From Saccoglossus kowalevskii (Eukaryota; Hemichordata; Enteropneusta; Harrimaniidae), in contig NW_003157233.1 of NCBI RefSeq assembly GCF_000003605.2, forward strand, positions 143,766 through 179,895: 36,130 bases of DNA, in the 5' to 3' direction. This document shows, in pieces, positions 459-30,913 of the stretch. Positions within the stretch are counted from its first letter, which is position 1, and every line of letters starts with the position of its first letter. The notes beneath the pieces are model-generated. The model saw only the letters and a list, made by a program, of their open reading frames with translations. It had not been told where the DNA came from and did no database searches. Made by a program: the position numbers and the translations under genes.

Positions 459-759
459 ATGTCAATGTTGACCATCCCGATGAGAAGTCCATCATAACCT
501 ATGTGGTCACTTACTACCACTTCTTCTCCAAGATGAAGGCTGAGACTGTATCTGGTCGTCGTATTGGTAAAGTTGTCATTGGTGCACAAGAGAATGAAAA
601 ACTGACTGACGAATATGATAAGATTGCCTCCAACTTGCTACAATGGATTGAGCAGACTGTGACAATCCTGAATGACAGGACCTTTGCAAACGCACTCACT
701 GGAGTTCAGCAACAACTATATGCATTCAACACATATAGAACTGTAGAGAAACCACCAAA
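459..759 (+). CDS. SPTBN1: Beta-spectrin exon 1 of window: end of CH2 domain
   Basis: Starts after the acceptor ..cacaatag at 458 and finishes a split Asp codon, so an upstream exon ending in phase 1 lies off the window. It encodes the last helix of CH2 ([17 protein letters not shown]) and the start of the region leading into repeat 1, ending TVEKPPK. An ATG at 380 opens the same frame but is intronic; no start codon belongs here. Donor GTAAGT at 760. Confidence 0.95.
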
Positions 760-3700
760 GTAAGTCTGTAACCTTCCCTCCCTCTCTCTCTAATGCAATG
801 TTCCTACATCTATAACATCACAGATGGTCTGATTATAATTTCTTTCATTGCTTAATTTCTGAACTTTGTTTATTCATTACTCCATGTGTGCTATCTAAAT
901 CTGTGCTATTGTTAGTGTCACTGGCAACCATCTTGGATTTTACAATGCTTTCTCAGGGTTACTTGCGTTCCATTCTATTGGAAATTTAAACACACAATCA
1001 AATAGGAATCTAAAACTATCATCAGCATTTGTAAGCACTGAAAAGCATTCATAACATTTACCACAGAGTGCTCAAATTCAGACCATCAAAATTCCAAAAA
1101 AAAAACTTTGTAAATTTGTTTGTATCTGTCAAAGTCAAATGTTTGTCTATTAGGTGGGAGAGATTTGGTCTTTAATAATGCTTTTTTTCCATTTTAGGTT
1201 TACAGAGAAAGGTAATCTGGAGGTGCTGCTGTTCACAGTGCAAAGCAAGATGAGAGCAAATAATCAGAAACCATACTTACCAAAAGAAGGAAGACTAATC
1301 TCTGATATCAACAAGGTAAATTCTATTTTTTTGTCAATGTTAGTTTTCTTGCTAAAGGTTAGATTTAGAACTGTTGAGAATAAAGATTTATGATTTGAAT
1401 TTATCTTTGTTGCGTCACAGGCCTGGGAAAGACTGGAAAAGGCAGAACATGAACGAGAGTTAGCCCTCCGTGAAGAGCTTATCCGCCAAGAAAAACTAGA
1501 ACAGTTAGCTGCTCGATTTGACCGTAAAGCTGCCATGCGTGAAACCTGGTTGAGTGAAAACCAAAGGCTGGTCTCACAGGATAACTTTGGTTATGATCTT
1601 GCTGCTGTGGAAGCCGCTGCTAAGAAACATGAAGCTATAGAAACTGATATTAATGCTTATGAAGAAAGAGTTATGGCTGTAGTTGCTGTGGCCCAAGAAC
1701 TAGGAAGCTGAGAAATACCACGATACTGATAGAATTAATGCCAGGTAAAAGTTACATTAGTTGACCCTTGAACCATAAATTAACATTCGATGTAAACTAA
1801 TTGTATCCTACAACTGAACACTTATTATTGCTTTTTACAGAAAGGACAATGTTCTTCGCTTGTGGGAGTACTTGCTTGAATTGTTGCATTCCCGTCGTAT
1901 ACGTCTAGACTTGTCAGTTGAGTTACAGAGAGTCTTCCAAGAAATGTTGCTTATATTAGACTGGATGGATGAAACTAAGGTAAGACTTGCAACCTTGAGT
2001 TAGTTCTATTTAGGAACTCGCATTAAACACTTGACTGACAGATTTAAGGTGTTTCTCAGTGTCAGCTGATTAAAGTAATTGTGGTATTAAATCTAAAATT
2101 AACAATATAGCATGCATGCGTTATATTGAAAATTGTCAAAATTTTTTTAAAATGTATAAAATCTTGCGTAAAAAAATGTTGGTGGGGGAAGTGAGAACAA
2201 TCAAGGTGTAAAGTATTATTGACATCACCACCTGTATCCTATCTAGATGCGCCTCCTCTCTGAAGACTATGGCAAGCATTTGATGGGAGTGGAAGATTTA
2301 TTACAGAAACACGCTTTATTGGAAGCAGATATTGCTGTACAAGGAGAACGTGTAAAATCAACAAATAAACAAGCTAGTAAATTCCTTGGACCACCATCCG
2401 ATGAAGCTGCAGGTTTGTTATTCTTGCCCAGCATTTAAATATGCCAGATAGTGATCAAATGCTTTTTATGTCTCATCAAATAGTTTACTCGTTTCACCGC
2501 ATCTTGGGTGTATCAGGATTGGTGACAATATCTGAAGTGTGTGATTTTGTTTACTTCTGCAGGCTATAGACCAGTTGACCCTCAAATCGTCAAAGATCGC
2601 ATGGAACATCTTGAAGCCAGCTATGCAGAATTATTACAACAAGGATCTGATCGACGCAACCGTCTTGAAGAGTCGCGTAAACTGTGGCAGTTCTTCTGGG
2701 ATCTGGCCGACGAAGAGGGCTGGATCAAAGAGAAGGCTACCCTCATGACAACTTCAGATATTGGGCGTGATCTTACCAGTGTTAATATTCTACTCAATAA
2801 GCACAAGGTATGAATGCAAAGTTGCTTACCTTTACTGGGAAAATAAATTTGGGTAAAAATAGGGTATGTGGGAGGTAACAACCTGATCTGAACTTAGTTT
2901 TTGTAAACTAATATATAAATGCTTTGTTTCAGGCTATGGAGGAGGATATAGCAGGTCATCATGCACAACTTTTGTCTGTGAATCAAGTTGGCGAAGACCT
3001 GATAGAACAGCAACACTTTGGTTCTGGTAAGATTCGTGTCCGCATCCAAGAGATCATATCTATGTGGGAGAATTTAGACCACCTGACACGTGCTAGAAGG
3101 AGGAGACTGCAAGAAGCACTCAATATGTACCAGGTATTATTATGAACAGTAATATTAATAAACTTTCAAAACTAGTTAAACCATTAGGTTTAGGCCATGC
3201 ATTGTCAAATTGTCTAGTTTGTGTTTGATCTTTGTGAGGTAGATAATCACACTTCGATGGCATCCTGGATGGTGCTTGTGTTGTATTACCAAAATTAATT
3301 TAAAACTGATTCGATATACCCTGTGGTTTGATTGTAGTTCTTTGCTGATGCGGATGATGTTGATACATGGATGTTGGACACATTGCGTCTTGTTTCCAGT
3401 GAAGACTGCGGAAGAGATGAAGCTAGTGTGCAATCACTTCTCAAAAAACACAAGGTAAGAAAAGAGACCTCTCACAATTATATTGATTATAACCCCTGGT
3501 CTGAATTTATCAATATTAACAATACAAGAATAATGTCCCACCATATTATCACTTATTATCTGAGAAACAATGCTCCTATTTTGAAATGCATGTCAGACAT
3601 CATTGTTTAAATTGTTTTGATAATCCATCATCTTTGCACTGTAATTTTTTATGACAATCGTTTTAAGTGAGAGGGCATTTTTGTTCACGTAAACCCCTTT

Positions 3701-6700
3701 TAATAAAGCAAATTGTGGAAACAGTTGTCTGTGTAGGAAGGGAAAGAGGGGGTTTGTTGAATGATTAAATATTTTAGATTCTATATCTTGTGCACGTTGA
3801 TGTGTACATGATTCTTATGGATGTCAAAAGTTGTATGTAGCAGAGTGATATTTTAACTAATTGCAAATTGAAATGCTTTTAGATTTTAACAAATAGCCAA
3901 CATGAGTAACGTCCATCATTGTACATGCTAATTGTTATAACTGCTTTACGTAAGCATCACATATGCCTGCCTTATATAAAATATCATAACATAATTACAT
4001 ATGCTTGCTATCTACCATGCTTTCTGCTTTCTAGGTGTTAATAGGCGTACGTCAACTAGCCCGTAGTGTGAGTGGCTTTCACCTGCATGATGTGTGTGTG
4101 TTGTCATCTTGCTTTATAATGCTAAAATTTCATATCATGCATGTAGTTATTTTACATCATTTATGGAAAACTTAATTTCTGAATTCTAGTTAATGATTTG
4201 GTTTAATTCATTTTGCTCTACTGCATTGTTGTTGCCTAAGACTAGTATCTTTAATGGGTGATGATCATCATGATGCACTGTCTTCCATATGTGCTCAATG
4301 CAATGTTTATAACTTGTGTGCAATATTTAGTTTATGCAAAATTTTGACTGGTGACCATCACCCTTTAAATATTGTTGTTCACAGAACACGTAAATCTTAT
4401 AGAAACAATTTCAGTTGCTTAAAGACCTGAAGAATACAAATTTTACATGTTTGCTGTGCATATAGTAACGTATGCTTTTGCCTGTAATACTGAACTTTAT
4501 ACGACTTGGTGTGTGTTAAAATGATTTGGTGACTAATGACACTTGATAACTAAAACACATTTCACTTTCATTTCATTTATTATCAGTTCAATCGTTAGTT
4601 TTGTGTGTTAATTATTTTGTTTTTCTTTACTTTGAAAAAGTTAGATAAACATTTCTAAACACAGGAATATTCATTTCACTGAGAACAAATAAATTCTATA
4701 ATGTTAAAGATGCGAGGATAAAGTAACCTTAAATTGGATTGTGGGAAATCTCATTTGGAGAAATATTATTGTATGTTTTCTAGATCCATATGCTAATTAT
4801 ATGTAAATGACTTTCCATAAGGAATGTCAGAGTACTTCCTAGACAAGTTTTAAAAAACACAAGAGCCATGCCAAGCATTTATTCCTGTTTTTAGAAATGA
4901 TTCATATCACAATACTTTCTGTTTATTTTATAATTATTGACTATCATTCATAATTTATATCATTCAGGATGTTGCAGATGAGCTTGGAAATTATTCTGCA
5001 GTTATTGATACTCTGCATGAACAAGCTAGCCATCTTGGAGATCAAGTAAGTGTTTTATGTCATTAGTATGTTATTTACTTGTTTCCTGTGTCGACAAACT
5101 TTCTTGTAGTATAATGGTATCATATGCATATTTAGCATGTGTTAATCGCTGTATCACATTGTTTTACAGGATAGACAGTCGGCAGAAGTACAATCTCGTC
5201 TGGGATCTATTGACCGTCGCTACAAAGAACTTGTTGAACTGGCTCGTCTACGTAAACAAAGGTTATTGGATGCCCTGGCATTATATAAACTATACAATGA
5301 AGCCGATAGTGTGGAATCCTGGATTGATGAAAGAGTAAGTTGATCATCTTTCTTGAGGCTACTATACATGCTTCTCAGTTTGCAATATTTCTTATTCATT
5401 GTTCATTTGCTTTCTTTTATGACAGGAACAAACTCTGTACACTATGGTGCCCGGTGAAGACCTGGAATCTACTGAGGTGGTGCAACACAGATTTGAACGA
5501 TTCGAAAAAGAAATGGAAAGTAATGCTTCAAGAGTGGCGGTTGTCAATCAACTGGCCGGACAACTGTTGCATATTGAACATCCTAACTCTGCTGAAATTA
5601 TGGCAAAACAGAACCATCTCAACCAACGGTAAGTATGACATTTGTCATGTAACTACATTGCTGTAGTTATCATCCAAATTGTCATACATATATCCACATA
5701 CCCTAAGTGTGACATTATGGGTCTCAGATCGGTAAAAGATCAAAATTTATGTTTTTTCTTCAATTGTTGCTTCAGATGGAATGCTCTTCAAATGCACGTG
5801 AATGAAAAGAGAGAAGCCCTCAATGGTGCACTGGGTATCCAGACGTACCATATTGAGTGCAGTGAGACAGTCACATGGATCAGAGATAAGACAAGACTCC
5901 TACAGTCAACTGAAGAGTTGGGAAGTGATCTTGCTGGTGTGATGGCTCTACAGAGAAAACTACGTGGTATGGAGACTGACTTGGCCGCCATTCAAGCTAA
6001 ACTGGACTCTCTGCAGAAAGAAGCAGATACTCTTGCTGAAGAGCATCCAGAGGAAGCTGATGCCATCCGCCAACGATTTGCTCAGATCACTGAGTGTTGG
6101 CAAGAACTTAGAATTATTGTAAGTGGTCATTATGTATGTGTGTTACATTGATTCTAGTAATTGATTCATTAACCTATTCACCACCAGTTCCCTCTTTTCA
6201 TCACAAATTCACAAAATAATCCTGTTTATAGTCTGTACTTTCCTTCAGAAGATTGGGACAAAAATAGGCAATAGCCAACAGTGATTCAATTTTTTTCTGT
6301 TAGCTCCAAAATTAGGGTTAATTTCAGAAACATTGAAGAATATAGGAAAAAGAAAAATTTGGATGAGTGGTGGTAAAAAGGTTAACATGATTTTGTTGTA
6401 AAATCGCTGGTCATTATGGTCTAGCAAAATAATTGAATTTCAAGAATAAGGAGATTGTAATCGAATCTGATACTTGTGGGGGGAGGATTGTGTATATCAA
6501 TTAACAAAGTTAGAGCTGCGACTCAAACTGAACCCATCACTACTAGTATATTGGGTTTATATCCCCCACCTATGCAAGATTACTAAATATATTTGTTTCT
6601 GATGCAGTTGCAAGAACGTGATGCAGCTATGGCTGAAGCCAAGGAGTTGCAGCAGTTCTTGCGCGATTTGGACGACTTCCAATCTTGGTTGTCAAGGACG

Positions 6701-9700
6701 CAAACAGCTATTGCATCCGAAGATATTCCTGAGAGTCTTGCTGAAGCAGAAAAATTACTGAACCAACATGCCGCTATCAAGGAAGAGATTGATGGCTATG
6801 ATGCAGACTATGCTAGAATGAGAGACATGGGACAGAAGGTGACAGAAGGACAAACTGATTCACAGTACATGTTCTTGAGACAGGTATGTTTTGATGCTCC
6901 CAGTATAGTGTTAAGATGGAATTTATTTTCGCTTTAAACTACAAATCAGTGTAGCCACATGTTTATTTTTCATACATCACATGCTTAACCCCCCGCCATA
7001 TAAAGATTTTTTATTTCCATTGAATTTGCCTACATGTTCTGAATTCAAGCCATGCTTTGTGAAGTAAATAAAGCTTCTCTCTCGTGTTGCATTTAAATAT
7101 AAATTTTGCTTTTCCCAGCGTTTACAAGCATTGGACGATGGATGGGAAGAATTACATAAGATGTGGGAGAATCGTCAACACTTATTGTCACAGTCTCTTA
7201 ACTACCAGATGTTTAACCGTGATGCTAGACAAGCTGATATGCTGCTCAATAAACAAGATAACTTCTTGACCAAATATGAGGCACCGGTATGTTGTGTGCT
7301 ATTATTTGAAGTTTATCAACATGGACAATTCAATCCATGTCAAATTAATTATTCAGTACTCAAATTTAACTTGCGTAATGCCTGATTGTAAAAAGAAGGA
7401 AAAATAGAATTGTAGTGACTGACAAATTATTTCTTCAACCAATTGATGTTATTTCACTGGTGTAAAAAAATTGCATTATAAAACCTAAAATCTAGAGTCG
7501 ATGTCACATAATTGCCATCAAGTCAAATAAACAACCTGTTCTTTTATCTCTCCACTATCAGACCAATCTTGAAGCAGCAGAAGAAGCCATCAAGAAACAA
7601 GAAAACTTCCTACAAACTATGGATGCCAATGATGACAAGATTAACAGTGTTATTGCCTTTGGTAACCGTCTTTGTGATGATAGTCATTATGCATCTGACA
7701 AAATATACAAAAAATGCGAGAACCTCGATGAAAGGTAAGATAATAATAAAACCATTTTCAAGCTGCTGCTCTTCAAATGTTAGAAGGAAGGATAACAGAT
7801 TATGTTAAAATAATCAAACATGTTCAAATCTGATTTGGCAATGAGAAATGTTAGTCTTGTACACTTGTTTAATTACTTGTTAATGTTTGCAGGAGAAAGA
7901 ACAACCGTGTAGTTGCTGACAATCAACTCAGCCAACTGCGAGATAATCTGCTACTGCAGAGCTTTGTACAGGAATCTGACGAGATTGGTCTCTGGATAAA
8001 CGAAAAGATGCTGATAGCTCAGGATGAAACATATGACGAAGCTAGAAGTATACACAGTAAATGGCAGAAACATCAAGCATTTGAAGCAGAATTAGGTGCC
8101 AATAAAGAAAGACTAGATAAACTTAATGAGGTTGGTCTAGTAATATCTATTTTTATATTGCAGGGAAAATAATATAGTGGCTATATTGTCTGGTTCAGAG
8201 ATATGTAGTGACTATTCCACTCTCTACATTGATTACATGTTCATTTTAAACAGTGATAATGTCTAAAATTTATTTATATGTAAAAAAATATAAATGTTAA
8301 TGCTGATATATATTTATTACCAGATTTTCTTGCATTGGATTCACTCATCTTTAATCTGTTTCTGCTCTTCCATAGCATGGTCACGAGTTGATTCTTGAGA
8401 AACCAGAGTACGCTGAACAAGTGGAGGGACGTTTAAGTGATTTAACCGCCCAGTGGGATGAACTAGACAATACTACTCAATCTAAGGCTAAGAAATTATT
8501 CGAAGCCAATAGAGCAGCCCTGTTCAGTGCTGGTTGTGATGATCTAGATACTTGGATCAGTGATTTGGAGACGTCTCTACAACATGAGGCTACCGGCAAA
8601 GATCTGACCAGTGTCAATTTACTGCTGAAAAAACAACAGGTGAGTTCATATTCAACTTATTTCATTATTGAATGATGAATGCCCCAGTTATTACCAAAAC
8701 AAAAAAAATCATGAAAACTGCTTCTGATGAAAGGAAATTAGACGTTGGCAAATGGCATTCCTTGTATCATAACTTATTGTCTTAACATTGCCATGTTCTA
8801 AAACTGTTGATTCTTGCTCATTTATGTAGATGTTAGAAAGCCAAGTTTTGGTGAAGAAAGAACAAGTCAATGAATTAGAAAGTCAAGTATGTACTTTACA
8901 AGATGAGGGTGATCTGGATAAAGTCCGGACTAAAAAATACACCATTGAAGAGAGATTCACAAAGATGTCAGAGCCATTGGCACAGAGGAGAGCTCTCTTG
9001 GAAGCTAACAAGAAAACTCATCAATTCAATAGAGATATTGAAGATGAGAAGGTGAGTTAGGAAAACAAGGATATAACGAACACCATTAGTAGCAGTGTTG
9101 ATATTTTTCCAGAAAATTCCATCGATGACTGTATTGATAGTTCAGGGATCAAGAAATTGACATACACTCGTATTAGCCAAACAAATTCATTCAGTGATTT
9201 ACAAATTTTGTGAGAAATTTCTGTTTCAATATTCAATCTCACCAAATGCTACAAGTGGTTATTCTTGCTGTTAAAGGGATAGTGTTGGCAGAATTTTGTT
9301 TAAAGCCTTTGACATGTCAGAATTTTTTGACTATTTTACCATTGGGAATGTCAAACTTCATACACTTGCGAGGTTAGTTATGTTTAAGGTATTCCAAATC
9401 CAACTGCAAACAGCATGATGAGTTTTATTATAATAACTTGGTCAATAAACAGTGCAATGTGCCAAGTTTTGATCAGTGTAACTAGAGAATGTTGTAACTT
9501 TCAGATATGGTTTTCGGTGAGGTTACTTTCAACTGATTTTTCCGACAATATATCTTCAACGTTTATTAACACATAAATAGAAGTTAACAACTAATCTTAT
9601 CTATTTCTAGATGTGGATTCTAGAAAAAATGCCACTGGCAACTTCACTGGACCACGGCAATAGCCTGCTAGCTGTACAGATGCTTATAAAGAAATGCAAC

Positions 9701-12700
9701 TCCCTTAAAGCCGAAACTGATGGACATGAACCTCGCATTGATGAAGTCTGTTCTCGAGGAAAGAGTATGATTGATGAGGGACATCCTAATTCAGAAGATA
9801 TTGAACGACAAATTGATGAATTACAAGATCTATGGCAAAAGTTACTTCAAGCCATTGATGCCAGAAAGATCAGACTAGAAGACTCAATTAAGGCACAGAA
9901 GGTATAGTTGAAGGGAGAGGGAGTAGAAATGAAGTATATGCTGGTTTTAGTTTACTTATAGTGTAATCTCTTGTGTGGCGTTAAAGGTTAGTGTTTTAGG
10001 CTAGCATCAAGGAGATGGCGAGTTTGACTCTTATGGGTTAGCTACCCATTCAGCAGCGAAAATTCAAGTACATTCTGTCTCTTTGACAGTCGTAGTGTGT
10101 TTTGATTTGGGATATCCAGTCAACTCTGTTTCTCATTGCTCATAAAAAAAAAAACTTCATGAAAGTATTCGATTGGAATTTAGTTATTTGAAGCTTTCTC
10201 TCCCAAAAAATAGACTTTATGATAGAACAGCAATAACATGCTGAATAAGATGTACAATACTGATGATGTTGAAATGCGAGATTTACCAGTGTACATTCTG
10301 TGCTTAAATCACTAATCATATATGTGGTATTAACAATTTATTGTACGTGTTCTTTAGTACTACTTTGATGCTAATGAAGCAGAGGCTTGGATGAGTGAAC
10401 AAGAGCTGTACATGATGGGTGATGACAGGGGACGTGATGAACCAAGTGCACAGACGATGCTGAAAAAACATGAAATTTTGGAAAATGCTGTAGAAGATTA
10501 TGCAGATACTATCAATGAACTCTCACAAGAAGCAAAGAAACTAATGGATGAAGACCATCCACAAAGGTCAGTACAACAAAAGAATCTGGTCTGTTTATGT
10601 TTATCCGTTATTATTGAACACTGTTAGTAGTACAATCTGTCACCCACACTCAATTGTTGTATCTTAACAGTGAACAAATTGCTGTACGCCAGTCTCAGAT
10701 TGATAAGTTATATGCTGGTCTCAAGGATTTGTCAGAAGAACGAAGATCTCGTCTGGATGAAACATTGAAATTGTACCAATTGAATCGCGAAGTGGATGAT
10801 CTAGAACAGTGGATTGCAGAGCGTGAGGTGGTGGCTGGCTCTCATGAACTTGGGCAAGATTATGAGCATGTGACAGTATGTATTTGTTTGATTTACATGG
10901 TTCTCGCCAATCTGTTCTTTCTCACCCATATATTTTTCTGTACTTTTCATGATAATGTTCCTAAAATTGTCCACCAACTCTTTGTAGATGTTACAAGACC
11001 GTTTCCGTGAATTTGCCCGTGACACTCATCATATTGGCCAAGAGCGTGTTGCCAACGTAAATGACATTGCCGATGCATTGATTGAAGCTGGACACACCGA
11101 TGCGGCTATCATTGCTGAATGGAAAGATGGTCTCAATGAGGCCTGGGCCGATCTGCTTGAATTAATTGATACCAGGACGCAGATGTTGGCAGCCTCGTAC
11201 GAACTACATAAGTTCTATTATGATGCAAGAGAAATCCTTAGTAGGATAGTGGTAAGTTGGTTTAGACCTCTTTGTAACTCATTCTTCTTGTCTTCACTGA
11301 TTGGGGTTTCTATTTGTTTATTTGTGGTTTTGTAATACAATATTTACACCAGTATTCTGAATGTGAAAAACAACTGCTGGGTGATTATACACTTTGCAGT
11401 CGTAATATAATATAAAAATGATAAGTGCCCAAACCGATAAAAATTCTTGTTACTCGCAGTGCACACATCTTATACTGAGATTTCATAAAATCTGAATCAC
11501 CAGTATAAACATTTGTACAGCTAACTGAACAGAATTGTGTAACGTTTATCCTATCTTGCAGGAAAAACAACAATCCATGTCCGAAGAACTCGGCAAAGAC
11601 GGCAACACTGTATTGAACTTACAGCGAAAGCATTCTGGATTTGAACACGATATCGTTGCCCTCGGCAGTCAGGTACAACAACTACAAGAAGATGCTTTGA
11701 GGTTGAGAGAAGCGTATGCTGGTGAGAAAGCAAGAGACATACACGCTAAAGAGGCAGAAGTTGTCAACGCTTGGAGGAGCCTGCAAGCCACTGTTGAGGG
11801 ACGTAAAATCAAACTGGCTGATACCTCGGATTATTTCCGCTTCTTGAACATGGTGCGAGATCTAATGCTTTGGATGGACGATGTGACAATTCAGATTAAT
11901 ACACAAGAGCAGGCCAGGTAAATTAAAATGAGACATCTTAAAATTCATTGTACCCAAGTATGACCACTCTCTCATTTCTATTGAGTATCTCACAATATCA
12001 TTTCTGGTCATTTCAGGGATGTATCTGGTGTAGAGTTACTAATGAACCAGCATCAGAACATCAAAGCCGAAGTTGATGCCCGTGATAATAGTTTTACTGA
12101 ATGCTTTACGCTGGGTAAAGAAATGTTGGGTAGAAGCCATTACGCCTCCAAAGAGGTAAGTCTGATACTATATTGTGAATAAACATGAGAAAATATGCTG
12201 ATTGTTGCATGTAAAACTTCATGACATCTATTAAAACACTGTTCATTACAGGTTTTAGCATCAGCCACAAAAATGAATTGTTTCATTCATTCATTCATTC
12301 ATTTCAGATTCGTGAGAAGTTGGTAAGTCTTGGCAATCGTCGTGGTTCTATGATCGGCGACTGGGAACATAGATGGGAATTCCTGCAGCTCATCTTGGAA
12401 GTATACCAATTTGCTCGAGATGCTCATGTAGCCGAGGCATGGCTTATCAGTCAAGAACCACACTTGAGGAGTGAAGAGTATGGAGTAAGTGTATTATTGT
12501 GCAAACTCATTTTGTTAAAATGATGTATATAAATATTATTCTTATATATTTCGCAACTGACTTATTTTCCTTAATAGAATTTCTTACATTTTAAATGTCA
12601 ACATTATGTGAAGTAATTGAGTTTCTTCTTTTACAGATGACCTTGGATGAAGTGGAGCTTTTGATCAAGAAACATGAAGCCTTTGAAAAATCTTTCCACG

Positions 12701-15700
12701 CTCAAGAAGAAAGGTTTTCGGCATTGGAACGACTTACAACAGTAAGTACTATCAGAGACATTACTGGTACTCATAAGTCCTGTTTCCAGATATTCATCCC
12801 TATTTTAAATGACTTGTGTATGCAATGTACACAAAATTAACTAGCATGTCATGAAACACGAAGTATCGTTAATTTAACTGATGGGAAAAAAAAATAGGTT
12901 GATAATTTACCCCAGTCAGATTGATGTGAATTTCAAAAAGACAAGAGGAAATGTTTTCAACAACAAAAAAAAGAAAATAATAACTTGTCTTGTTTTGCAG
13001 TTTGAATTGAAAGAACTACGCAAGAGACAAGAAGAAGAATATCGTATGATGCATCCAGATGCTGATATCCCACCTCGTAAAGAATCGCCATCAATGAAAC
13101 ATAAAGTTATAGAAGACTTCTTAAGAGAAGATAAAGAAATGGAAGAAATGGATAAGTATGTGTTTTTTCTTTTCTGAATCTGAAGATGAACTACAGTTTT
13201 AGTCAAAGTATGGATATTTCCTCACAAAATGGGTATTATTTCAAAATAATATCTGAATGATAGTGTAATAATTGAGTTCAATCTTTAGATTCATGTCTTA
13301 TCATTTCTCCATAAGATTGAGGAGACGACAAATTGAAATTGATGAAGCACGTCGTCATGAGATGCAAGTAGAAAAACTTCAATATGAAAAAACACCTGAA
13401 CATGTTGTTGAAGAGCATAAAGAAAGTGCTGGGGAGCCGCACGTCAATGGTGAAGAAGAGAAACCAGAAACGGCCCCAGCTGTAAGTAGGCGTGGTGTTG
13501 GTGAGGGCGAAGCTGGAATGGGTGAAGATGTGGAAGCAGAAGGCCAGTTGGCTAGAAAACATGAATGGGAAGCACATGCCAAGAAAGCGTCCAACAGGTA
13601 AGGAAACTGTTAAATTTGTGAAATGATAATAACATTTCTTTTGTACTTGGAAGAAACACTCAATCATGTGCATGGACAGAAAATTGTGCTCTAAAAAATG
13701 CCAGTCATAGCAGTGTTTTGATTTCATGTTCATGAGACACCAATACAAGATTATCTGTGTAATCTGTGTGTAGTAAGCCCTCTTAAATCCTTGATAATAA
13801 ATCTGTCTGATTCCAGGTTTTTGACCTCACATACAAACACTTGTTTACATTGATCACAAAAGCATTTTATAACATGTGGAAATAGAATCATGTCACTGAA
13901 CCCAAATGTTTACACAGAACAACATCTCTTCCTGGCATATTGGTTTTCTCTCTTCATATTATTACTACCGGTACAACCTGAAAACAAAATGTGCAATATT
14001 AAGGTTATCATGAGAATATTGCAAATTCTGCACTCGGGCAGTACACATGTCAACCCATACAATCACTGGTACTGCCTTTGTGCATACTTTGTTTGTAGTA
14101 CTTTCTTGCTATAATCTCATAGCTTCCATGTGTAACAGTGTTGATTTGTTTTCATCAGATCTTGGCATCATGTATATGTGGTACAACAAGGCCCTATGCT
14201 ATCGTTTTACAAAGACAAGAAGCACAAGTTACAAGAAATTACTTTCCACGGTGAAGAACCAGTGAGTGTCCTCAATGCAAAGGTGAACATTGCTGGTGAT
14301 TACACAAAGAAGAAGCATGTTTTCCGACTCAAGTAAGTCATGTCNNNNNNNNNNNNNNNNNNNNNNNNNNNNNNNNNNNNNNNNNNNNNNNNNNNNNNNN
14401 NNNNNNNNNNNNNNNNNNNNNNNNNNNNNNNNNNNNNNNNNNNNNNNNNNNNNNNNNNNNNNNNNNNNNNNNNNNNNNNNNNNNNNNNNNNNNNNNNNNN
14501 NNNNNNNNNNNNNNNNNNNNNNNNNNNNNNNNNNNNNNNNNNNNNNNNNNNNNNNNNNNNNNNNNNNNNNNNNNNNNNNNNNNNNNNNNNNNNNNNNNNN
14601 NNNNNNNNNNNNNNNNNNNNNNNNNNNNNNNNNNNNNNNNNNNNNNNNNNNNNNNNNNNNNNNNNNNNNNNNNNNNNNNNNNNNNNNNNNNNNNNNNNNN
14701 NNNNNNNNNNNNNNNNNNNNNNNNNNNNNNNNNNNNNNNNNNNNNNNNNNNNNNNNNNNNNNNNNNNNNNATGCTCTCTACAATGTCAACTCATGAAACT
14801 ATTATTGAACAATCCATATTTTATTAGTCCCCGTTCGGACGAAGTCAAAAAACGGGGACTTATAATTCGGTCTCCGTCCCTGCGTTCGTCCGGAGTCATA
14901 TCTCAGAATCCCTTGGACCGATTCCGTTCTTTCTTTGCATGTGCCTCATACTTTATCTGGGACATATGCACATGCAGTGGTTTAGCGATTTGATTCAAAA
15001 TGGCCGACTGGCAGCCATCTTGTTTTTTGAAAATGTTGTATTTTGGACATGCTCTGTCAGTTTTCATTCAAATTTGGTACATAGATTATACACGTTAGAA
15101 TACATGTCCATGATGATATATTTCACAATTGGATCAAAGATGGCCGACTGGCAGCCATCTTTTTTTTTTTTTTTATGCGGTATCTTGTAAGTGCTCTGTC
15201 AGTTTTCATTCAAATTTGGCACATACTTTATACATGTTAGGATGCATGTCCATGACAATTTGTTTAAAAATCTGGTCAAGGATGGCCGATTGACAGCCAT
15301 CTGACTTTTTGGCCTTACTGCTATATTTCCACAATTTATGTACCATTTTCATTTGTATTTGGCACATACATCATACATATCAGTTTGTTTCATAATTAGA
15401 TCAAAGATGGCCAAGTAACGGCTGTTTTTATTTTTAGCCATATTTACTACTACACGGAACACGTGTTTTGATGTAAATAAACAATCTGTTGTATACGCCA
15501 CTTGGAACTCAAGTTTCAAGGACACGCTCGCGACAACCCCTCCCCCCTCGCTTTAATATGACAAGCACAAAGAGAACTTTCAAAAATTTAACGGGGACTG
15601 TGTCATTTTCAATGACTTGTATTAAGAAGTATTTGCTGTACAATGTATTGATTTTTAGGCATTTTTTTTTTAAGGTGTTATTTTAATCTTTTTTGATACC

Positions 15701-21009: not shown

Positions 21010-21211
21010 CTAATATGTAATTTCACTTTTGATTTGTTGAGTACTGTGTGGAGGTGTATCTCGCTGACTACCAACGAGCTGAGGTGGTGTACCTAAGGGT
21101 CCCATGATATGTGGGCGACCACGCGTCATTCCTGCCATCATCGATGGTGCGGTTGATGGACGTATTAAAGGAGGTGGTTGGATGGGCACAGAACGTGGAG
21201 GCTGCAAAAAT
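21010..21211 (-). CDS. RCOR1: RCOR exon 12: Pro-rich C-terminus and stop
   Basis: Encodes [20 protein letters not shown], Met-rich [14 protein letters not shown] and the end [11 protein letters not shown] at 21012-21010. IKSE fits the SUMO-attachment consensus (hydrophobic-K-x-E) six residues from the end. Acceptor actttccag. Confidence 0.9.
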
Positions 21212-24200
21212 CTGGAAAGTAAAAAGCAAATATTATATAATCGCAAAGTCTCCTTGTATATTAACCTAAATTGTGCATAGAAGCTACTTAATATGCAAAC
21301 TTGTATGTTACAATTTTTTTTTTAATTATATCAATTAGATGCTAAAGCATTCCATACCTAACTAGAATATGTAAATGAACTACTTAATATGAAAATGCTT
21401 TCATGTTACAACTTGTATGAGCATTACCTGCTTGGTTGTTGTAATGGTGGTGGTGGTCTGTGTACAACTTGGGGCTGAGTTGGAGGTGCAGTAGCTGGAG
21501 CTGATGGAGAAGAAGTAGATGGTCCCCTCAAGAGAGGAGGTGGAGGAGCATTCGTAGAGTTCCCACTTGTCGGTGGTACTTGAGTGACAACTGGTGTCGC
21601 CGAATGGGCCACATTCTGACCATTTATACGCTACAATTGAATAAAAATTCACGTTAGATTCATGCATTAAACAGTGACAAAACATTGTTGGATCAGCATA
21701 ATCTTGGATGGCATTTTGACAATCTGTTGTTGAGATTGTGAATGAGTAAAAAGAGTTTAAACGGTCTCTTAAGTTAAGAAAAGCAATAGGTGGTTTTATC
21801 AGTAACATCTTAGGTATGCTCGTCTAAGGGACCCTCCAGTTCTCTCAAAATGAAATGAGTAAAGTCAGGGTATCTAATTTGTAATATATACTTTTTTTTT
21901 TTTATAGCTAAAACAGTATCATTTCAAGGAATTTAATGTTTATAGCTTGTTCTAGTAGTGATGCTTTACATATTTACAAAGCGAAATGCAATTTATTAAG
22001 TGACAATAATGTTACCTCTTCATCAAAAATTTTGTAATCCTGTTTAGTATGACCATATTCAGCTTCATACTCTTCCAAGACTTGATCCAGGTTAAAACGA
22101 CGTCGGTAGTTGACAAAGAAACTTCGAACTTGCGAGGTGTTCTTGTTTCCCACAACATCGGCAATAGCTTGAGAATCTCTTCCATATTTTCGAACAGCTG
22201 TAATTAACAAGACATAAAACCAAGCACATTAAACAACTCTAATCAACAGGTTACCTCAAACTGACCAATGCTCAAAAAATGGATGAAAGGTAGCCATTAT
22301 GTACAGATTAGCAAAAATTGGAAGTAAGGAAAACATTGATCAAAGCTTCATACATTACTTATATTACATAGGCAGTGACCAGAACATGCAACACTTCCAA
22401 GGACCTACCTTCTGTTTGATGTGAAAGTGATAAATCTAATTTGTTAATCCAGATACATGAATAGAAGCCATTCTCCACATTACCTTGCACTGCAATAAGC
22501 AGTTCATCATTTGTCCATCGTGCATTGATTCTTTGACCGTTGTCCAATATCTTATACTCTTCCAAGTTGAATTCACACTTGTCTTTTTGCTTGCTCAAAA
22601 TTTGTTTATTTAATTGCATCTGGTAAAAAAAAAATTAATTTTAATTATATGACCTGGCATTTGCACACACATCCAATTGACAAATAACAAGCCATCGAGA
22701 ATGTCACAGTCCCTCTGTTTTTTTTTTAAGATTTTTAATATACGACAAGTGAAAAGTCAGCGTTTATATTGCTGTATTGTGTATGTTCCAGCTTCATGCT
22801 AAATATCTGACTGCAAGACAACATGTCTCTGTTGGCAAAATGTAAAAAAAAGGATTGCCCATCTGCCATCTTGGAATCGATCAATATACTGATCAACTTT
22901 CATTAGCTAACAGACGGACTGCATTAAAGAGAAAAAAATAATGACAAACCTGCTTTTTAAGCGAAATAAGCTCTGTGTCCAACTGTTTAAGAAATGAATC
23001 TCCCTGAGGTGAATTTAATGCCAATAAATCATCTTTATCTAAGTACATTCCTCTTGGTGGTTTGCGTCTACTTTTCAATGGATTATGTCTATCTGGTCTT
23101 GGAGTTTCATTCTTTATTGGCCCTATGTTGGTCCGCATCACCCCAGTTCTCCTAATTAGAGTAGAGATAAAGGCAATATATTCAAGATTTATCAATATGA
23201 ATAATATTCAACATTGAGTACAAATTAATAAATCAAGATACTATATTACAAGTACCGTAATGATTATAACCATGAATCGTTTCTTGAAAATCTGATTTTG
23301 GTAGCACATTAAATAAAGCCAGTTGAAATACAAGCATGCTAACCCTTGCAAAGAATGGTTTTTAAAATGTAGAGAAATGCATTTGTGACCCCACCTTGAT
23401 ACAAATTCTAGTTGTGTGAAACCTTTAGGGAGTATATCAGTCCTTCATTCCTACATTACAAACTAGTAGGCATAATAGATGGACAATCATTTAGACCGTG
23501 TGTAATTGATGCAAATACACACCAAGGGATTTGGGCTATTGTAAGTTCAACCTAGACACACACAAAAACAGCACAATGTATGTGTTTTTTAAATACATCA
23601 GAAAAATTGACACCAGATTTATGAGGTCTCACTTGTGTTATTAATTCCTTTCACTTGTATGCCTATTCATTTCATGCTTGGAATTAGTGTGTTAAATGGA
23701 ATTATGGTTTTATAACTTTCACTGTGCACTCATTAAATATATACAAGAATAGGATTATTATTCAAATTTACATGTCTCTTCTTACATAAAATAGCATCTT
23801 ATTACATATACTAATTATTCAGAGAATTGAAAACCATGAATTATGTATATAATTAGAAGCTACCTGCTTGTGTATAAAACTGTAGTCATTAATTTTTTGA
23901 AGAGAAGAGAGTCAACAGATAGCAAATTCTCACATTTTGAACTGAACAAATTGTAGGGAAATGCTACATACAAAGGTATGCATTGTTTTCAAATGAAAAC
24001 TCCATGCTGATCAGATACATACCACTGCAAGAAAATTTGTCACAAACAAAGCTGTTACACGACAATGGCAATTTCCCAAATGCATAGTCAAAAAATACGA
24101 TAAACAATATTGGCATGAAATATCGGAGAAGAAATAACATCCCATCTGATCAGCAATGTGTAATGTTGGGCACTTGGTTACATATAGGACAAACACAAAA

Positions 24201-27200
24201 CAATAACATCACAAACAAGAGAGAAATAAACAGAGCAATGGTCAATCATAAAATTTAATTTCAAACCACTGATGGTCCATAATTTACATAAAATATACAA
24301 ATTCATGCCATGTGTACAAAAAAAAAATCACTCAAATATAGACTCAAAAAGAAATTACAGTGTCCGATAAAAATTGATAATGTGACCGATAGGTAATAAA
24401 AATAAAAGTCCTGAACGGACTGGCTGGACTTGTATATGACAATTGAATAAAAGATATGAAGTTACAGAGACCAAGTTTTATACATCTATTTTCTTTTTTT
24501 TTTGTAAAATATTTACTCTTGGTTTTACAATCTAAACCACCTTTAAATTACAGTTAGTCTGAAGAGCAGATATTGCAACTTTGAGCACCACTTACATTGT
24601 GGATATAAAACTCTAATTTCCAAGCAAATGTATTTTGCCAAGACCATGATTATTATCGCTAAGTAGAAGTGTAACAAGTCTAGAAATTAGGGAAATTTAC
24701 TGATTGCAGGTAGAGATAATAACTGTACAATTTAAAGTATGGTCACAATGGACAATAAGATTTTCAAAGTTTGCATTACTACAAGGTTCTACATATCTGA
24801 TAGTATTATATACATCTGTCAGAGTACGCATCTCAAAGATGGTGGCAGTGTTTCAAAACAAAGTGCACGCCAAAAAAAATTATGCTAGTTTTCACAAACT
24901 TTAACAGTCCTTGACTTTATGCACCATTTCGTTGACTCAAGAATGTGTATAAGTGAAGTTAATATGAAGATATTGCAAAATATGCACTCAAGATGGTACA
25001 ACAGTCGCATCAGTTGTTACTTTCACCGTACTTTGCAGTATCATCATGATATCCTTCAGTGTACAGAGCAGCGACTTAAAAATTCTATGCCATAAGAATT
25101 TAGTACTTTCATTGATGGGCGTCAGGAATTCTGTTTGAATTGCACTAAAATTTGGACAAGTTTAGTCAGACCCCAGGTGTCAAACTATTGCAGGTAAGAA
25201 ATTTACCAGTAATTCAACACAGTATTAGATGAAGAACAGGTATCACGATATCGTCTGGATTGGTTTCATCATGTTGCTGTCATTCGAATCCGAGGGGATG
25301 TCTCCGGGGCATGTCTGAAGTCATGGAAGAGAAATCAACGAATTTAGTTGTAACTAATGGATGGGCGACCAATTAAAAATTTCAAACCCATGAAGCCTCT
25401 AATGCTAACTGTTTAAATAATTAACATCTCAATTTCAATTCAGGATTCCTATACTGATAAAATGACTGTTAATTTAGTGAGTAGCTGGATTCCTCTCAGG
25501 ACATATGATGAACAAACAGCATGCAAACAAAGACAAATTATGAATTAACATAAAGAGAAAAGAGAATGAGTACAAATATGAAGACAAAAAAATGCTGACA
25601 AATTACGTCAATTGATTCATGTCATGTAATGTACAAGTTATGTTTTGTATGCATTTCAGGATATAGTATTACATCAACACAAAGTCATAAAGGTGACTAT
25701 AGATGTAACTCATCAGTGTTAGTGTAGCAATTTATGTCATTGTATCTATCACAGATGGTACCCCAAGGTAGCAGTCCCAAGATAAGCCATTCGGTGAGGT
25801 TGGTTAGGGAAGCAGACACACTTAGGCGTTAAGTTACAGGCATGAAACCATAATGTACCTCAAATGCACTGATTTGCTGGCTAACTCTGACACAAGAGCT
25901 AGCCATGAATGTACATTGATCCAGTAATTACAATAACTTTCTACATCACAATTCAAGTGCCATATGAATTTGTTTGAAATACAAAAAAGCTAACCAAATA
26001 AATTCACATCCAAAGTGACCCCCGCCAACACTTCAAATAGAACTTTTTGCTACATTACGTTAGATATCAGTTTCTTCCCCCAAGAGACTTTTTATGTTCA
26101 TGGTCAAGGTCAAATACTACCGTCACAAAATACATCCATCATTACAGAGTTCAAAACAAAGACAACCGCTTATTGCATTTCAACTTATGACTTTGCAGAT
26201 TATAGTGCTCAATAATCTTGTTAAATTCACTAAGGTGGCTTTCATGTGCTTACAATCATATAAAGGCATAGCATATGAGGTAAAAATGACCCAGCCATCA
26301 TCGTAAATACATCCATGGGTAGACCAAAACTGGTATGTTTAAGGGGAAAACCTTTGAACTCACCTCCAATAACTATAACAAGCATTGCACAATGATCCTT
26401 TAGGAGTTGAATGAACCTGACTTGAAGATGTCTGACAATTGGAACATGTATGTTTATCACGACCATCTCCCTGTAAAACAAGAACAGATATATATTATTT
26501 CACAATTTTTTCCCCATTTCAAATGATGAAATTGTGAATATTTCCAGCAGTACGAAGCATTATGTTACTCAGATAATGGCACAAATAATAATAAAAGCCA
26601 ACCTACCCTGTGTCCTTCTGGATCGAAGTCACTGTCCACAACATTTTCTTCATCTGACGGCGGCTCCTCACTATTATTAAAGACGACAAGAATTAATTAC
26701 AATTACATTTGACAGGTTGCATGTGGCCTAATAAGATAATTATCTTGTCAAATCATTCAACATAATATTTAAATCGATTCTTTTAATAAATCAAAGTACA
26801 CATACACACCTCCCGCTGTTCTCCTTTTGTCCGACAGTTAGTTTCTTCGCTTGCCTATCCATCAAGCTGGTCCTTGTACGAGTTTTTTTCCATGAATAAT
26901 AGTATCGTACCAGACAGCTGATAGATTTGTCTGGTAGCTGTAACAGAAACAAGGAAAACATGTTGAAAGATTGTGTTTACTCCAAACACCACTTCATCCA
27001 AATATTAGAGGGACACCCATATGCAATACAGGTACACAAAGTAGGTTTTCAGTTGCTCTGCATTGAAAACTCACTACAAGAGAAAGCTAATACAACACCT
27101 AAATCATGATGCTTACCATCTGTCGAATACGATGAAAACTTTTGCCATGAAAACTGAAAGCCTGTTCGAAGAGAACTTTGTCTTCAACGGTCCACTCATC

Positions 27201-30200
27201 AGGGAATGGGGTGAAATTAGGTAAATCAGCTAGGGATTTATCAACGTCATGCCGGTGCCAGAAAAGCATTCCTAGTGCTTGCTCAGTGTTGTATCCATAT
27301 TTTTCCTTGGCTACCTTGATGTACTCATCCACTGTTGAAGTAATAACAGAAACAAGACTGTTAATCCTAGTGATTCTGTAGATTGTAAGTAACTGATTCA
27401 TTTCAAAGAGTATTATTTAGAAACAACATAAGATTTATAGTTTTGAAGTACAATAATTAAACAAAATTCCAACATGCATTCACATCACTAGGCAATCATC
27501 CACAAGTGGTAATAAAAATCAAATCAAAGTCAGCTTTGTTACCAAACCAAGACAAAATAGTTCAACAAGGAGGAGAAACATAACAGTCAAATCTACTCTA
27601 TTCATATTCAAATTGATGTATAATTCATTACTTATTCAATTTCATAAATAGTGGATCACTTACATTTTTCATCACCAATGTCAGTTGTTGGAGCCCAAAC
27701 AAGAAGAGCTTCTGGTCTGCCGTCACCTCGTTGACCCGGAGGGATATCACCTGCTTAAAAGGTTAAACAGAAATGCAAAATAAATATCAAGTACTGTAAA
27801 ATGTGTATTAGAAGCTGCGGCTTCTATTAAAATGGTACAATTTAACAGAGGGGTAGGACTTCTATTAGAGCATCTACATACGTATGAGAAATGGTGAATT
27901 TTTGGTTCTCAATTGTTCAAAAGGAATGGGTGTGACTTATATTAGAGATTTAGAAAATTTGTTACATTATATTTACATTAACAATGGTCTGTTAATTAAA
28001 TTAACACAAGAGAAAAACTAGATAGTTTTAGGTTATAGAATCTAATTGAGATTAACTGCAGTTACCTAAAATAGAATCAGACATGTAACTTGATAACTAC
28101 ATACAAGTTTCTGTCTACTTTGAGAAATAATCAAATAATCAGTAGTGATGTCATGTGCATAGATTTGATCACACTCAATGTTGAATAATACTGTGAATAA
28201 ATCAATTATTTGCTTAGATAATCAGTAAAACTCACTAAATATAAAAACAATGTGAAAATGTAACATACATATTGTAAATCAGTGATTTACTATCACAATT
28301 TTAAAAGCTAATGAATAAGCCTGAAAGGTTAATTAAAAGAAAAGCTCTAAAAATCAATATAATAAGCATTGCCTTTTGAAAATGGCCTGGAAACTAAAAA
28401 TGGATCTCCTGAACACAGTTACACGCAGGTGATTAGGTAAGCTAAGCTATTAAAATCTCTTAGGAGGAATTATAATTAGCTTTGCTGGGTCTTGATCCTA
28501 GCAAGTGATAGAGGCGTTATCACTTCCTTTAGAAAGTAAGATAAGGTATGATCCTTACAATGGCATGATGAGAGCAGTAGGAGATGAGCAGGTGAAGCTT
28601 AGGCATTTACACAATAGAACAGTTTATGATGGTTTCAAATACGACACGCAATACATGCACAAAGAACACATGTAGTTTGAATCTTGGGATAGGTATGCAT
28701 CGCATTTGTTGAAGCAAAATTTATTAAAATTAATTTTTAAATCTCTGTAGTTTAAATTTATTAGTAAAGATCTGTATACTTTTTTTATATTCTAAAATAT
28801 TTGTCAGGAATTGAAATAGAATTTTTTCCCTGCATGCACAGTGTGCATGTTGAATTTGAAATTTACCTGCACTAACTTGTTGTGAAATGCACCATTTTTA
28901 AAGTTTAAATAAAATTTACGGTTTATCGATTGATGATTGATTTTTTAGTTGTCTTACAATGTTGGTTGAACTTAATTTAGGCTTAGTGAATATAATGAAA
29001 AAATGTTGTGTTAATTTCCACATGCACAGCGTGCACATTGTATTTTGAGTTTACTTGCACTAGCTAATAATCTATGTGCATAGTGCAGTGTGCACCAGAG
29101 TATTTCGACCCCTGTTTGTTAATCAAGGATGTACATTCTTAGATGGTTTGATCAAATAGGCATTGAAAAAATAATTACAAACTTTTTAGTCATTGTTTCC
29201 AAAAAAATCTGTTATTACATCATTATCACCTGCACAATGTCAGAATCTTCAGAAAAAAAACAAGTAGTTATCAGATGGCTTAAACGATAAATTTGTGAAT
29301 AGAATGAGAGACAGCAAATGATTGCTGCATTTATTTCTTAATTTATGTTGTTACAGTTGCAGTTTTTTTCAGTTTTTTATGGCACTGAAGGCAATCATGT
29401 TCCTGGGCATTGTTATTACAGTCCCATGTCAATCATTAAATTTATTTCCATGTGAAAAAAATGTACTAATTTGAAACATCACTAAATATTTACTTAAATA
29501 TTTTTTTTCAAATATAAATCAGTTAATGTGTAAAATTAAACAATCTCTTGAACAAAACTAAAGCCTGAAAAAAAAAATTAAAAATGCATTAGTTCTGAAA
29601 CAGGAAACTTTTTAAGACTTGTCTGGTATAAGATTGTAGTTATCGATAAGCAAATGTTACATTTAAACAACAGAAGCTTGATAGCCATCACACCACCAAG
29701 ATCCACTTAAATTTAGGCCAAGATTCATACAACAAAACACTACCTCCAACTAACAGACCTGTGCTTTGAAAATTATTAAAAATTAGAAATTCTATTATTT
29801 TGAATCAATAAAAAATATCTTATCATAAATTATAATAATATATCACTATGAAGCAACAATAACAGAACTGAACAAGACTGAGTCATTTGACCTTGACAAT
29901 TTTTCAAGATGAAATAGTGTTCTGATTGAATGCATGTACTCGACCAGTTTATAGTCTCGGCTAAAACAGGCAAAAATATCAAGCTCATTAAAAATACAGC
30001 ATTGGCCATTTAAAACAAATAAAGCAAATAAAGTCTTCAATCAATTCAAAAAGGCAAAAACAATAATTAACATGTGTTTATTCTATGTATAAATGTATTA
30101 AGCATTTTAATTATTCCCATTTTGTCATCTGAGACAGTCATCAGCAGCCTATCAAATAATTATTGTGAATCTATCTAATTAAATATTCAGAACACGTACA

Positions 30201-30913
30201 TAGGAATATTTTTCCCAACAAGGGAAAACAAATCTGAAAATTATTCAGAAAGAACTGCACATTTTTTTCAGGATATCTTACTACCTTAAAATCTTGATAA
30301 TATATGTGCGAAGTAGCGTTTAAGAGCACAAAGTCTAAAACAGCACATATGCAAATTATTATGCAAATGTTGGAAAATGCCATGAATTTTTTTTAGGTGC
30401 ATTTGCCTACCTATTTTTCCATGAAAATCCAGCCTGGGGATTTTTATTAGAGTTATGAGGGTCAATGTTATACTCGATAAACTGAAAAATGTGGAAAATG
30501 AGACGTTCAGAAATGGTTCTTTGTTCCTGAAAAATTATGCGTAGCTTCGCATTTTTGGAGGTCACTGTTAAATAAAGGCAACCGTAGGTGGACACACAAA
30601 GAAAACAATTTGTAGTACCGTTCGCCATCTCCGGAATCGGGGCTTGATAATCTTCGCCAACTCGCATTCCCGGCTCTGCAAGTAAAGAAAATGTCATAAT
30701 TAGACTTGTACATTCGGTACTTTGAATCAAAATTACTTTTTCTCCGAATAGCAAAGTATCATTCGTTCAATGCAGGATCTGAATACCGTGTTCATCATCC
30801 GAGCTGCTGCTGGCGCTGTCGTCCGACATGTGTCCGTTGGAGGCTCCAGCGACGTGAGAACCATTATTACGAGTGCTCATCTCCGAATCGCCGTTTCTGT
30901 CGGCCATAACCAT
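21010..30913 (-). CDS. RCOR1: CoREST / REST corepressor with GATA-like zinc finger, 12 exons
   Basis: Nuclear scaffold of the LSD1-CoREST-HDAC repressor complex: in the family ELM2-SANT1 recruits and activates HDAC1/2, and the inter-SANT linker plus SANT2 bind LSD1 and nucleosomal DNA. Twelve exons join in phase to 569 residues. Order: Ser/Asp-rich N-terminus (1-45), ELM2 (about 46-127, [13 protein letters not shown]..., [20 protein letters not shown]), SANT1 (about 136-183), Cys4 zinc finger (Cys 235, 238, 254, 257), linker with [11 protein letters not shown] (about 288-298) and a heptad-like segment, SANT2 (about 361-420, [15 protein letters not shown]), then a Pro-rich tail (436-569) ending QIKSEITY. 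Human RCOR1 is 485 residues with no such finger and a different tail. Start at the first ATG, 30913; ATG 30907 (GTTATGG) has the better context. Invertebrates have one RCOR gene, so the symbol means family. Confidence 0.95.
21428..21630 (-). CDS. RCOR1: RCOR exon 11: Pro/Ser/Thr-rich tail
   Basis: Low-complexity text with polyproline runs ([22 protein letters not shown]). No counterpart in the short vertebrate RCOR tails. Assigned because phases, GT-AG sites and the open frame continue from exon 10. Confidence 0.88.
22016..22197 (-). CDS. RCOR1: RCOR exon 10: SANT2
   Basis: Encodes [40 protein letters not shown] and the EYEAE end; YGRD-QAI-DV-GNK and [10 protein letters not shown] are diagnostic for CoREST SANT2. 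Acceptor taattacag, donor GTAACA. Confidence 0.97.
22484..22619 (-). CDS. RCOR1: RCOR exon 9: linker helix and start of SANT2
   Basis: Encodes [30 protein letters not shown] and [14 protein letters not shown], the first SANT2 helix. Phase 0 in, phase 1 out; donor GTAATG. Confidence 0.94.
22950..23151 (-). CDS. RCOR1: RCOR exon 8: zinc-finger tail and LSD1-binding linker
   Basis: Encodes [11 protein letters not shown], then [19 protein letters not shown], equivalent to KRKPPKGMFLSQEDV of RCOR1, and [15 protein letters not shown], the start of the long linker helix that packs on the LSD1 tower. Donor GTTTGT, phase 0. Confidence 0.94.
23152..26363 (-). other. RCOR intron 7 (3.2 kb)
   Basis: Separates the zinc-finger core exon from its basic tail. 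AT-rich, chance open frames only, no gene recognised on either strand. RCOR introns of 330-390 bases with nothing notable are 21631-22015, 22620-22949 and 27332-27663. Confidence 0.8.
26364..26470 (-). CDS. RCOR1: RCOR exon 7: Cys4 GATA-like zinc finger
   Basis: 107 bases encoding [16 protein letters not shown] then [14 protein letters not shown]. Spacing C-x2-C-x15-C-x2-C with LCNAC before a basic RRTG tail, resembling GATA-type fingers (usually C-x2-C-x17/18-C-x2-C, LCNAC-x2-Y). Enters phase 0, leaves phase 2 (AG). Acceptor gttttacag, donor GTGAGT, both strong. DNA binding is not shown; related fingers in MTA and RERE proteins serve chromatin complexes. Confidence 0.9.
26607..26670 (-). CDS. 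RCOR1: RCOR exon 6: acidic linker
   Basis: 64 bases encoding [20 protein letters not shown] then HR; comparable to the acidic ESEDELEE stretch after SANT1 in RCOR1. Enters in phase 2 and leaves in phase 0. Acceptor taataatag is poor in pyrimidines. Donor GTAGGT. Confidence 0.9.
26810..26937 (-). CDS. RCOR1: RCOR exon 5: end of SANT1
   Basis: Encodes [20 protein letters not shown] and [11 protein letters not shown], the third SANT helix and following basic region. Ends in phase 2 (AG) with donor GTGTGT. Confidence 0.95.
27117..27331 (-). CDS. RCOR1: RCOR exon 4: end of ELM2 and start of SANT1
   Basis: Encodes [40 protein letters not shown] and [20 protein letters not shown], nearly invariant in CoREST proteins; SANT1 begins at DEWT. 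Acceptor acttcaacag, donor GTAAGC. Confidence 0.97.
27664..27750 (-). CDS. RCOR1: RCOR exon 3: ELM2 middle
   Basis: Encodes [20 protein letters not shown] and TTDIGDEK, corresponding to the LVW-P motif of ELM2. Acceptor is AAGCAG, a possible NAGNAG tandem acceptor. Donor GTAAGT, phase 1. Confidence 0.92.
27791..27950. repeat. Decayed interspersed repeat, CTTCTATTAGAG family
   Basis: GGCTTCTATTA (27819), GACTTCTATTAGAG (27857) and GACTTATATTAGAG (27934) recur within 130 bases. The left end has an AGAAGC/GCTTCT hairpin (27810-27825). Looks like a remnant of a short non-autonomous element. Confidence 0.4.
28831..29100. repeat. Diverged direct repeats with palindromic CATGCACA core
   Basis: CATGCACAGTGTGCATG (28833-28849, perfect 8-bp arms) and CATGCACAGCGTGCACA (29021-29037) are each followed by similar text ending TTTAC-TGCACTA. 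A third related GTGCATAGTGCAGTGTGCAC lies near 29079. Confidence 0.65.
30349..30368. promoter_or_regulatory. Pair of octamer (POU) motifs
   Basis: ATGCAAAT at 30349-30356 and 30361-30368, same orientation, 12 bases apart, 251 bases inside RCOR intron 2. Exact matches to the POU-factor octamer; function is inferred. Confidence 0.3.
30619..30675 (-). CDS. RCOR1: RCOR exon 2: start of ELM2
   Basis: 57 bases encoding [18 protein letters not shown], the N-terminal ELM2 signature (MRVG-x-YQA-x-P). Acceptor tacttgcag; phase 1 on both sides. The donor GTACTA is weak but is the one that keeps phase. Confidence 0.92.
30787..30913 (-). CDS. RCOR1: RCOR exon 1: start codon and acidic/Ser N-terminus
   Basis: Reads [20 protein letters not shown] and [15 protein letters not shown]. 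The Ser-run followed by DDEH matches the SSSDEEH/SSDDEHD element just before MRVG in vertebrate RCOR1-3. The frame stays open upstream but without another ATG in the stretch I checked (to about 30988). Donor GTATTC, phase 1. Confidence 0.85.

Follow-up and report, generated by a model that had tools for sequence, protein, structure and literature searches.

The CoREST (RCOR) proteins are defined by the presence of an ELM2 domain and two SANT domains (PMC9400249), and those of jawed vertebrates are described as the products of three RCOR loci, with an intrinsically disordered pre-linker (PMC10721905). In the human CoREST complex, the HDAC1 and LSD1 lobes are reported to be joined by a tower/linker bridge and by a thinner SANT1-linker connection (PMC7043024). 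For the zinc finger of MTA1, another ELM2-SANT protein, DNA binding that is probably non-specific has been proposed, and pull-down experiments placed the finger region among three regions that bind RBBP4/7 (PMC4244562); a position from which the same finger could reach nucleosomal DNA has also been proposed, with no density assigned to the finger itself (PMC7736783).

The window analysed herein, the whole stretch of 36,130 nucleotides from the hemichordate Saccoglossus kowalevskii, carries on its minus strand (30907..21010) a complete CoREST/RCOR gene of 12 exons, which encodes 567 amino acids in a single open frame and in which all 11 introns follow the GT-AG rule (11/11). The exons are listed below, with the basis of each assignment in brackets.

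30787..30907, minus strand: CoREST exon 1, proposed start codon (spliced gene model)
30619..30675, minus strand: CoREST exon 2, start of ELM2 (gene model, Pfam)
27664..27750, minus strand: CoREST exon 3, ELM2 (gene model, Pfam)
27117..27331, minus strand: CoREST exon 4, remainder of ELM2 and beginning of SANT1 (gene model, PDB match, Pfam)
26810..26937, minus strand: CoREST exon 5, rest of SANT1 (gene model, PDB match)
26607..26670, minus strand: CoREST exon 6, acidic stretch ahead of the finger (gene model, charge count)
26364..26470, minus strand: CoREST exon 7, whole GATA-type finger, residues 224-258, with Cys 233/236/252/255 (gene model, Pfam)
22950..23151, minus strand: CoREST exon 8, basic tail after the finger and beginning of the LSD1-binding REST helical region (gene model, PDB match, Pfam, charge count)
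22484..22619, minus strand: CoREST exon 9, remaining helical region and start of SANT2 (gene model, PDB match, Pfam)
22016..22197, minus strand: CoREST exon 10, SANT2 (gene model, PDB match, Pfam)
21428..21630, minus strand: CoREST exon 11, Pro-rich C-terminal region (gene model)
21010..21211, minus strand: CoREST exon 12, C-terminal end with the stop codon (gene model)

After Pfam scanning of the whole protein, ELM2, two Myb/SANT stretches and the REST helical region were all identified, the last of these (PF20878, LSD1-binding) lying between the SANT domains and scoring 76.8 bits against a cut-off of 27. The closest relatives of the protein core among solved structures were human RCOR3 (E 3.8e-111) and RCOR1 (E 3.5e-105). 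Both the PDB relatives and the complete set of domains agree with the identification of this protein as CoREST in a preceding sequence-only reading of the window. A spectrin gene, which we take to be of the beta type, occupies about 380..13600 of the plus strand, tail to tail with CoREST, and the Pfam Spectrin domain was detected in 2 of the 10 ORFs that were scanned. The window also includes an assembly gap (a run of N) at 14345..14770.

The same reading had proposed a Cys4 GATA-like finger at 26364..26470, and this interval turned out to be exactly exon 7 of the spliced model. Cys 233, 236, 252 and 255 form the motif C-x2-C-x15-C-x2-C (residues 233-255), and Pfam places the finger between SANT1 and the REST helical region, as had been claimed together with the basic RRTG tail, which is present in the spliced product and extends into exon 8. 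The stretch ahead of the finger is acidic (net -8 over 22 residues), and that behind it is basic (net +8 over 34 residues). The GATA family model PF00320 matched the whole CoREST protein with 27.0 bits (E 3.5e-6), narrowly above the gathering cut-off of 26.8, and a 73-residue finger fragment with 31.3 bits (E 1.5e-7), while a human MTA1 segment scored 39.7 bits in the same scan. The best solved relatives of the finger fragment were GATA-1 (E 0.0033) and AreA (E 0.0056), and all 13 PDB matches listed up to E 10 were GATA-type proteins, MTA1 being absent among these 13 matches of the fragment alone. The score above the cut-off and the nearest PDB relatives thus uphold the earlier assignment to the GATA-like fingers.

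The motif C-x2-C-x14-21-C-x2-C occurs four times in the six-frame translation of the window, so that the cysteines by themselves are a weak indicator. A chance occurrence at exon 7 was rejected because this motif, the one of the four scanned by itself, matches PF00320. We also shuffled the finger residues with the cysteines kept fixed, 2000 times for each comparison. The observed score was reached by none of the 2000 shuffles for GATA-1, AreA and the MTA of the same genome, by 1 to 4 for human MTA1, by 2 to 19 for five GATA-factor fingers of the same genome, by 34 for RERE, and by 33 and 57 for two other fingers of this genome. Since shuffles with fixed cysteines rarely match the observed scores, the similarity to GATA fingers exceeds the cysteines. 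The loop of 15 residues does not fit the C-x2-C-x17-C-x2-C of typical GATA factors (17 in those compared here, 18 in RERE and 20 in MTA), but loop length is no bar to membership in PF00320, because the family includes MTA1 with 20. We are almost certain that the exon 7 domain is a GATA-type finger and, judging from its sequence, it would fold around one zinc like the other members of this group.

Exon 7 (107 nt) is bordered by the acceptor gttcttgttttacag and the donor gtgagttc, and its phases, 0 at the start and 2 at the end, fit those of exons 6 and 8; the good splice sites and phase noted beforehand are therefore confirmed as consensus sites with phases matching the neighbours. According to the gene model, skipping of exon 7 alone, or of exon 6 alone, leads to an early stop, and a transcript that includes exon 6 thus requires exon 7. 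That exon 7 is a mis-annotated or decayed exon, either unused or encoding a finger that does not fold, is very improbable. By codon usage, exon 7 did not stand out from intron windows free of stops, of which 16 of 106 scored as high, the loop is two residues shorter than that of GATA factors, a conserved Trp is missing, and the Pfam score of the whole protein is barely over the cut-off; against this, the four cysteines are intact, the frame is open, the splice sites are of consensus type with fitting phase, omission of the exon breaks the frame, and the resemblance to GATA fingers is not confined to the cysteines. The coding frame of exon 7 was surpassed in codon-usage score by another of its frames, and a single-sequence AlphaFold2 model of exon 7 alone was poor (mean pLDDT 56.6).

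Exons 6 and 7 together comprise 171 nt within 26364..26670, and their joint skipping keeps the frame with a product of 510 residues; because the two exons are jointly frame-neutral, a CoREST isoform devoid of the finger is possible. In its stronger form, this idea holds that exons 6 and 7 are a regulated cassette, included in only some transcripts, so that the finger would act as a switch for some function. A precedent is found in the fly, where a CoREST splice form whose linker carries a large insertion is described to have lost Lsd1 binding (PMC9400249), indicating that insertions into the linker can alter the complex. The strong consensus splice sites speak against such regulation, as does the known variant of NvCoREST in the same report, which affects SANT2 and not the position of the finger (PMC9400249), and we consider a cassette rather improbable.

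Relatives were searched for in the S. kowalevskii genome itself (a 572-Mb assembly of 4830 contigs), where only the best candidates were scored and the counts are lower bounds. All seven listed CoREST matches and both listed matches of the finger peptide (2/2) fell within the gene of the window, CoREST being found at one locus among the matches listed. Both listed MTA1 matches (2/2) were at one locus, and RERE gave at least one match. Confusion of CoREST with MTA or RERE was ruled out, both lying on other contigs. Collections of genome contigs, viral contigs, plasmids and phages, all of prokaryotic or viral DNA, yielded no orthologue, an absence that carries no weight for an animal gene. GATA-type fingers were seen in MTA and in RERE within this same genome, as stated for these proteins in the sequence-only reading. 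PF00320 gave at least nine matches at E <= 0.001, of which five correspond to the fingers of two GATA-factor loci, and exon 7 was not among the nine matches listed at this threshold. One GATA-factor locus, L023 (G000:C2346:510500-515500), carries three fingers, one of the N type and two in tandem exons of the C type. Another GATA-type finger was found at L006 (G000:C770, near 91052-91135), together with a second Cys-rich stretch at the same locus.

With respect to the origin of the CoREST finger, the position, the flanking residues and the tree point in one direction and the intron structure in another. The MTA1 match to CoREST covers the stretch from SANT up to and including the finger (query 54-206, chain 285-448, E 1.2e-11), and the distance from the SANT YYY-W motif to the first Cys is 61 residues in CoREST and 67 in MTA1, the only protein compared in this respect. 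By eye, the YSYWRRTG that follows the fourth Cys of CoREST is closer to WIYWKKYG of MTA and RIFFKKYG of RERE than to GLYYKLHG of GATA factors. Among the nine fingers of the same genome, MTA gave the highest score to the CoREST finger (56, z 5.0), followed by 53 (z 3.9), the scores of the GATA C-fingers being lowered because their sequences were cut at exon ends. In a finger tree built on some fifty gapped columns, too few to decide the origin, CoREST, MTA and RERE were split from the rest (SH-aLRT 93.1, UFBoot 79); the long branches of these divergent fingers may pull them together in the tree.

The fingers of the MTA (L020) and RERE (L021) of this genome are each split by a phase-1 intron after the first Cys pair, the two introns being six bases apart by alignment with the RERE donor read by eye. 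This intron is not present in CoREST, where the finger is uninterrupted in exon 7, as are the GATA-factor fingers of the same genome. An independent gain, by which a finger exon like that of GATA factors entered CoREST in this lineage or in a larger invertebrate group, would account for the single exon, in contrast to the split fingers of MTA and RERE, and for the top raw scores, which are 70 to GATA-1 and AreA versus 56-57 to MTA. It agrees less well with the MTA/RERE-like residues after the fourth Cys, with the MTA1 finger being at the same place behind SANT, and with the cost of 7.4 log units for placing CoREST among the GATA C-fingers (AU p 0.058, not rejected), and we regard it as fairly unlikely. 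The position behind SANT and, short of significance, the tree lean towards an old ELM2-SANT-finger layout and the intron structure leans against it. The most likely origin, to which we give about an even chance, is an ELM2-SANT-finger layout common to MTA, RERE and CoREST, the finger having then disappeared in the lineage of the vertebrate RCORs.

The earlier claim that vertebrate RCORs lack cysteine pairs in this region holds for the two human paralogues examined, RCOR1 and RCOR3, whose linker sequences were confirmed in PDB entries: the four-Cys finger is absent from both, RCOR3 having one Cys in the linker and RCOR1 none, and the RCOR3 linker gave no GATA match in the Pfam scan. The terms GATA and zinc finger do not occur in the main text of a Nematostella CoREST paper surveying 54 animal species (PMC9400249), and neither GATA nor zinc occurs in the main text of a paper on RCOR evolution (PMC10721905). 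A description of the CoREST finger was not found among the papers listed in full-text searches; automatic domain labels in protein databases may already show it. The CoREST with a finger is a real, well-placed variant of CoREST.

As to function, the CoREST finger was compared with GATA-1, to which 16 of 36 aligned positions are identical. The base-contacting residues of GATA-1, which we take to be T16, L17, R19, N29, L33 and L37, are poorly retained in CoREST, one of the six being identical and one conservatively changed. Since most of these positions are changed, the CoREST finger is unlikely, as far as its sequence tells, to read GATA sites. By analogy with the proposals for MTA1, the finger and its basic tail would contact nucleosomal or linker DNA without sequence preference, or would dock a partner, and the finger would sit on the thin SANT1-linker connection joining the HDAC and LSD1 lobes. 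A point against a role in chromatin contact is the report of Song et al., in which the human CoREST complex touches the nucleosome via LSD1 and not via RCOR1 (PMC7043024). We hold such an MTA1-like contact between the two lobes to be about evenly balanced between right and wrong. As a tentative alternative, rated somewhat below this, the finger would be a protein-docking module that touches no DNA, in line with the changes at most of the base-contact positions and with the pull-down of RBBP4/7 by the MTA1 finger region (PMC4244562); the basic tail behind the finger and the DNA binding proposed for MTA1 (PMC4244562, PMC7736783) argue against docking alone. Our best explanation as a whole, combining a GATA-type finger, non-specific contact with DNA or a partner, descent shared with MTA and RERE and loss in vertebrates, has in our estimation an equal chance of standing or falling.

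The finger may add a contact of the CoREST complex with chromatin or a partner protein. Under the ancestral reading, which we find evenly poised, CoREST would have begun as an ELM2-SANT-GATA-finger protein, the original LSD1-HDAC complex would have possessed a third chromatin contact, a zinc finger, at its hinge, and human CoREST would be a reduced form, in which the vertebrate RCORs retain only the disordered pre-linker in place of the finger. Should the finger prove ancient and common among animals, the structural models of LSD1-CoREST-HDAC considered here, which are built on human proteins, would miss a chromatin- or partner-binding module of many animals, the pre-linker of vertebrate RCORs would acquire an evolutionary past, and MTA, RERE and CoREST could be seen as three lines of descent from a single ELM2-SANT-finger scaffold.

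In comparison with known systems, the S. kowalevskii CoREST shares ELM2, SANT1, the LSD1-binding helices and SANT2 with vertebrate RCOR1 and RCOR3, and the similarity is high to either side of the finger, but it is set apart from them by the four-Cys finger that follows SANT1 and precedes the helical region. One RCOR locus was found in its genome among the matches listed, versus three in jawed vertebrates, as would be expected of an animal that is not a jawed vertebrate. It resembles MTA1 of NuRD in having a GATA-type finger behind ELM2 and SANT, at a comparable distance, and differs in the loop (15 versus 20 residues) and in the intron within the finger of the MTA of this genome; to our knowledge, MTA1 has neither an LSD1-binding region nor a SANT2. 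RERE is likewise an ELM2-SANT protein with a GATA-type finger and similar residues after the fourth Cys, but its loop is 18 residues long, its finger in the same genome includes an intron, and the similarity is lower. With GATA-1 and AreA the CoREST finger shares the Pfam family, while it departs from the GATA factors in its loop of 15 instead of 17 residues, in the absence of Trp18, and in the replacement of G32-L33 by Y-S and of L37 by R.
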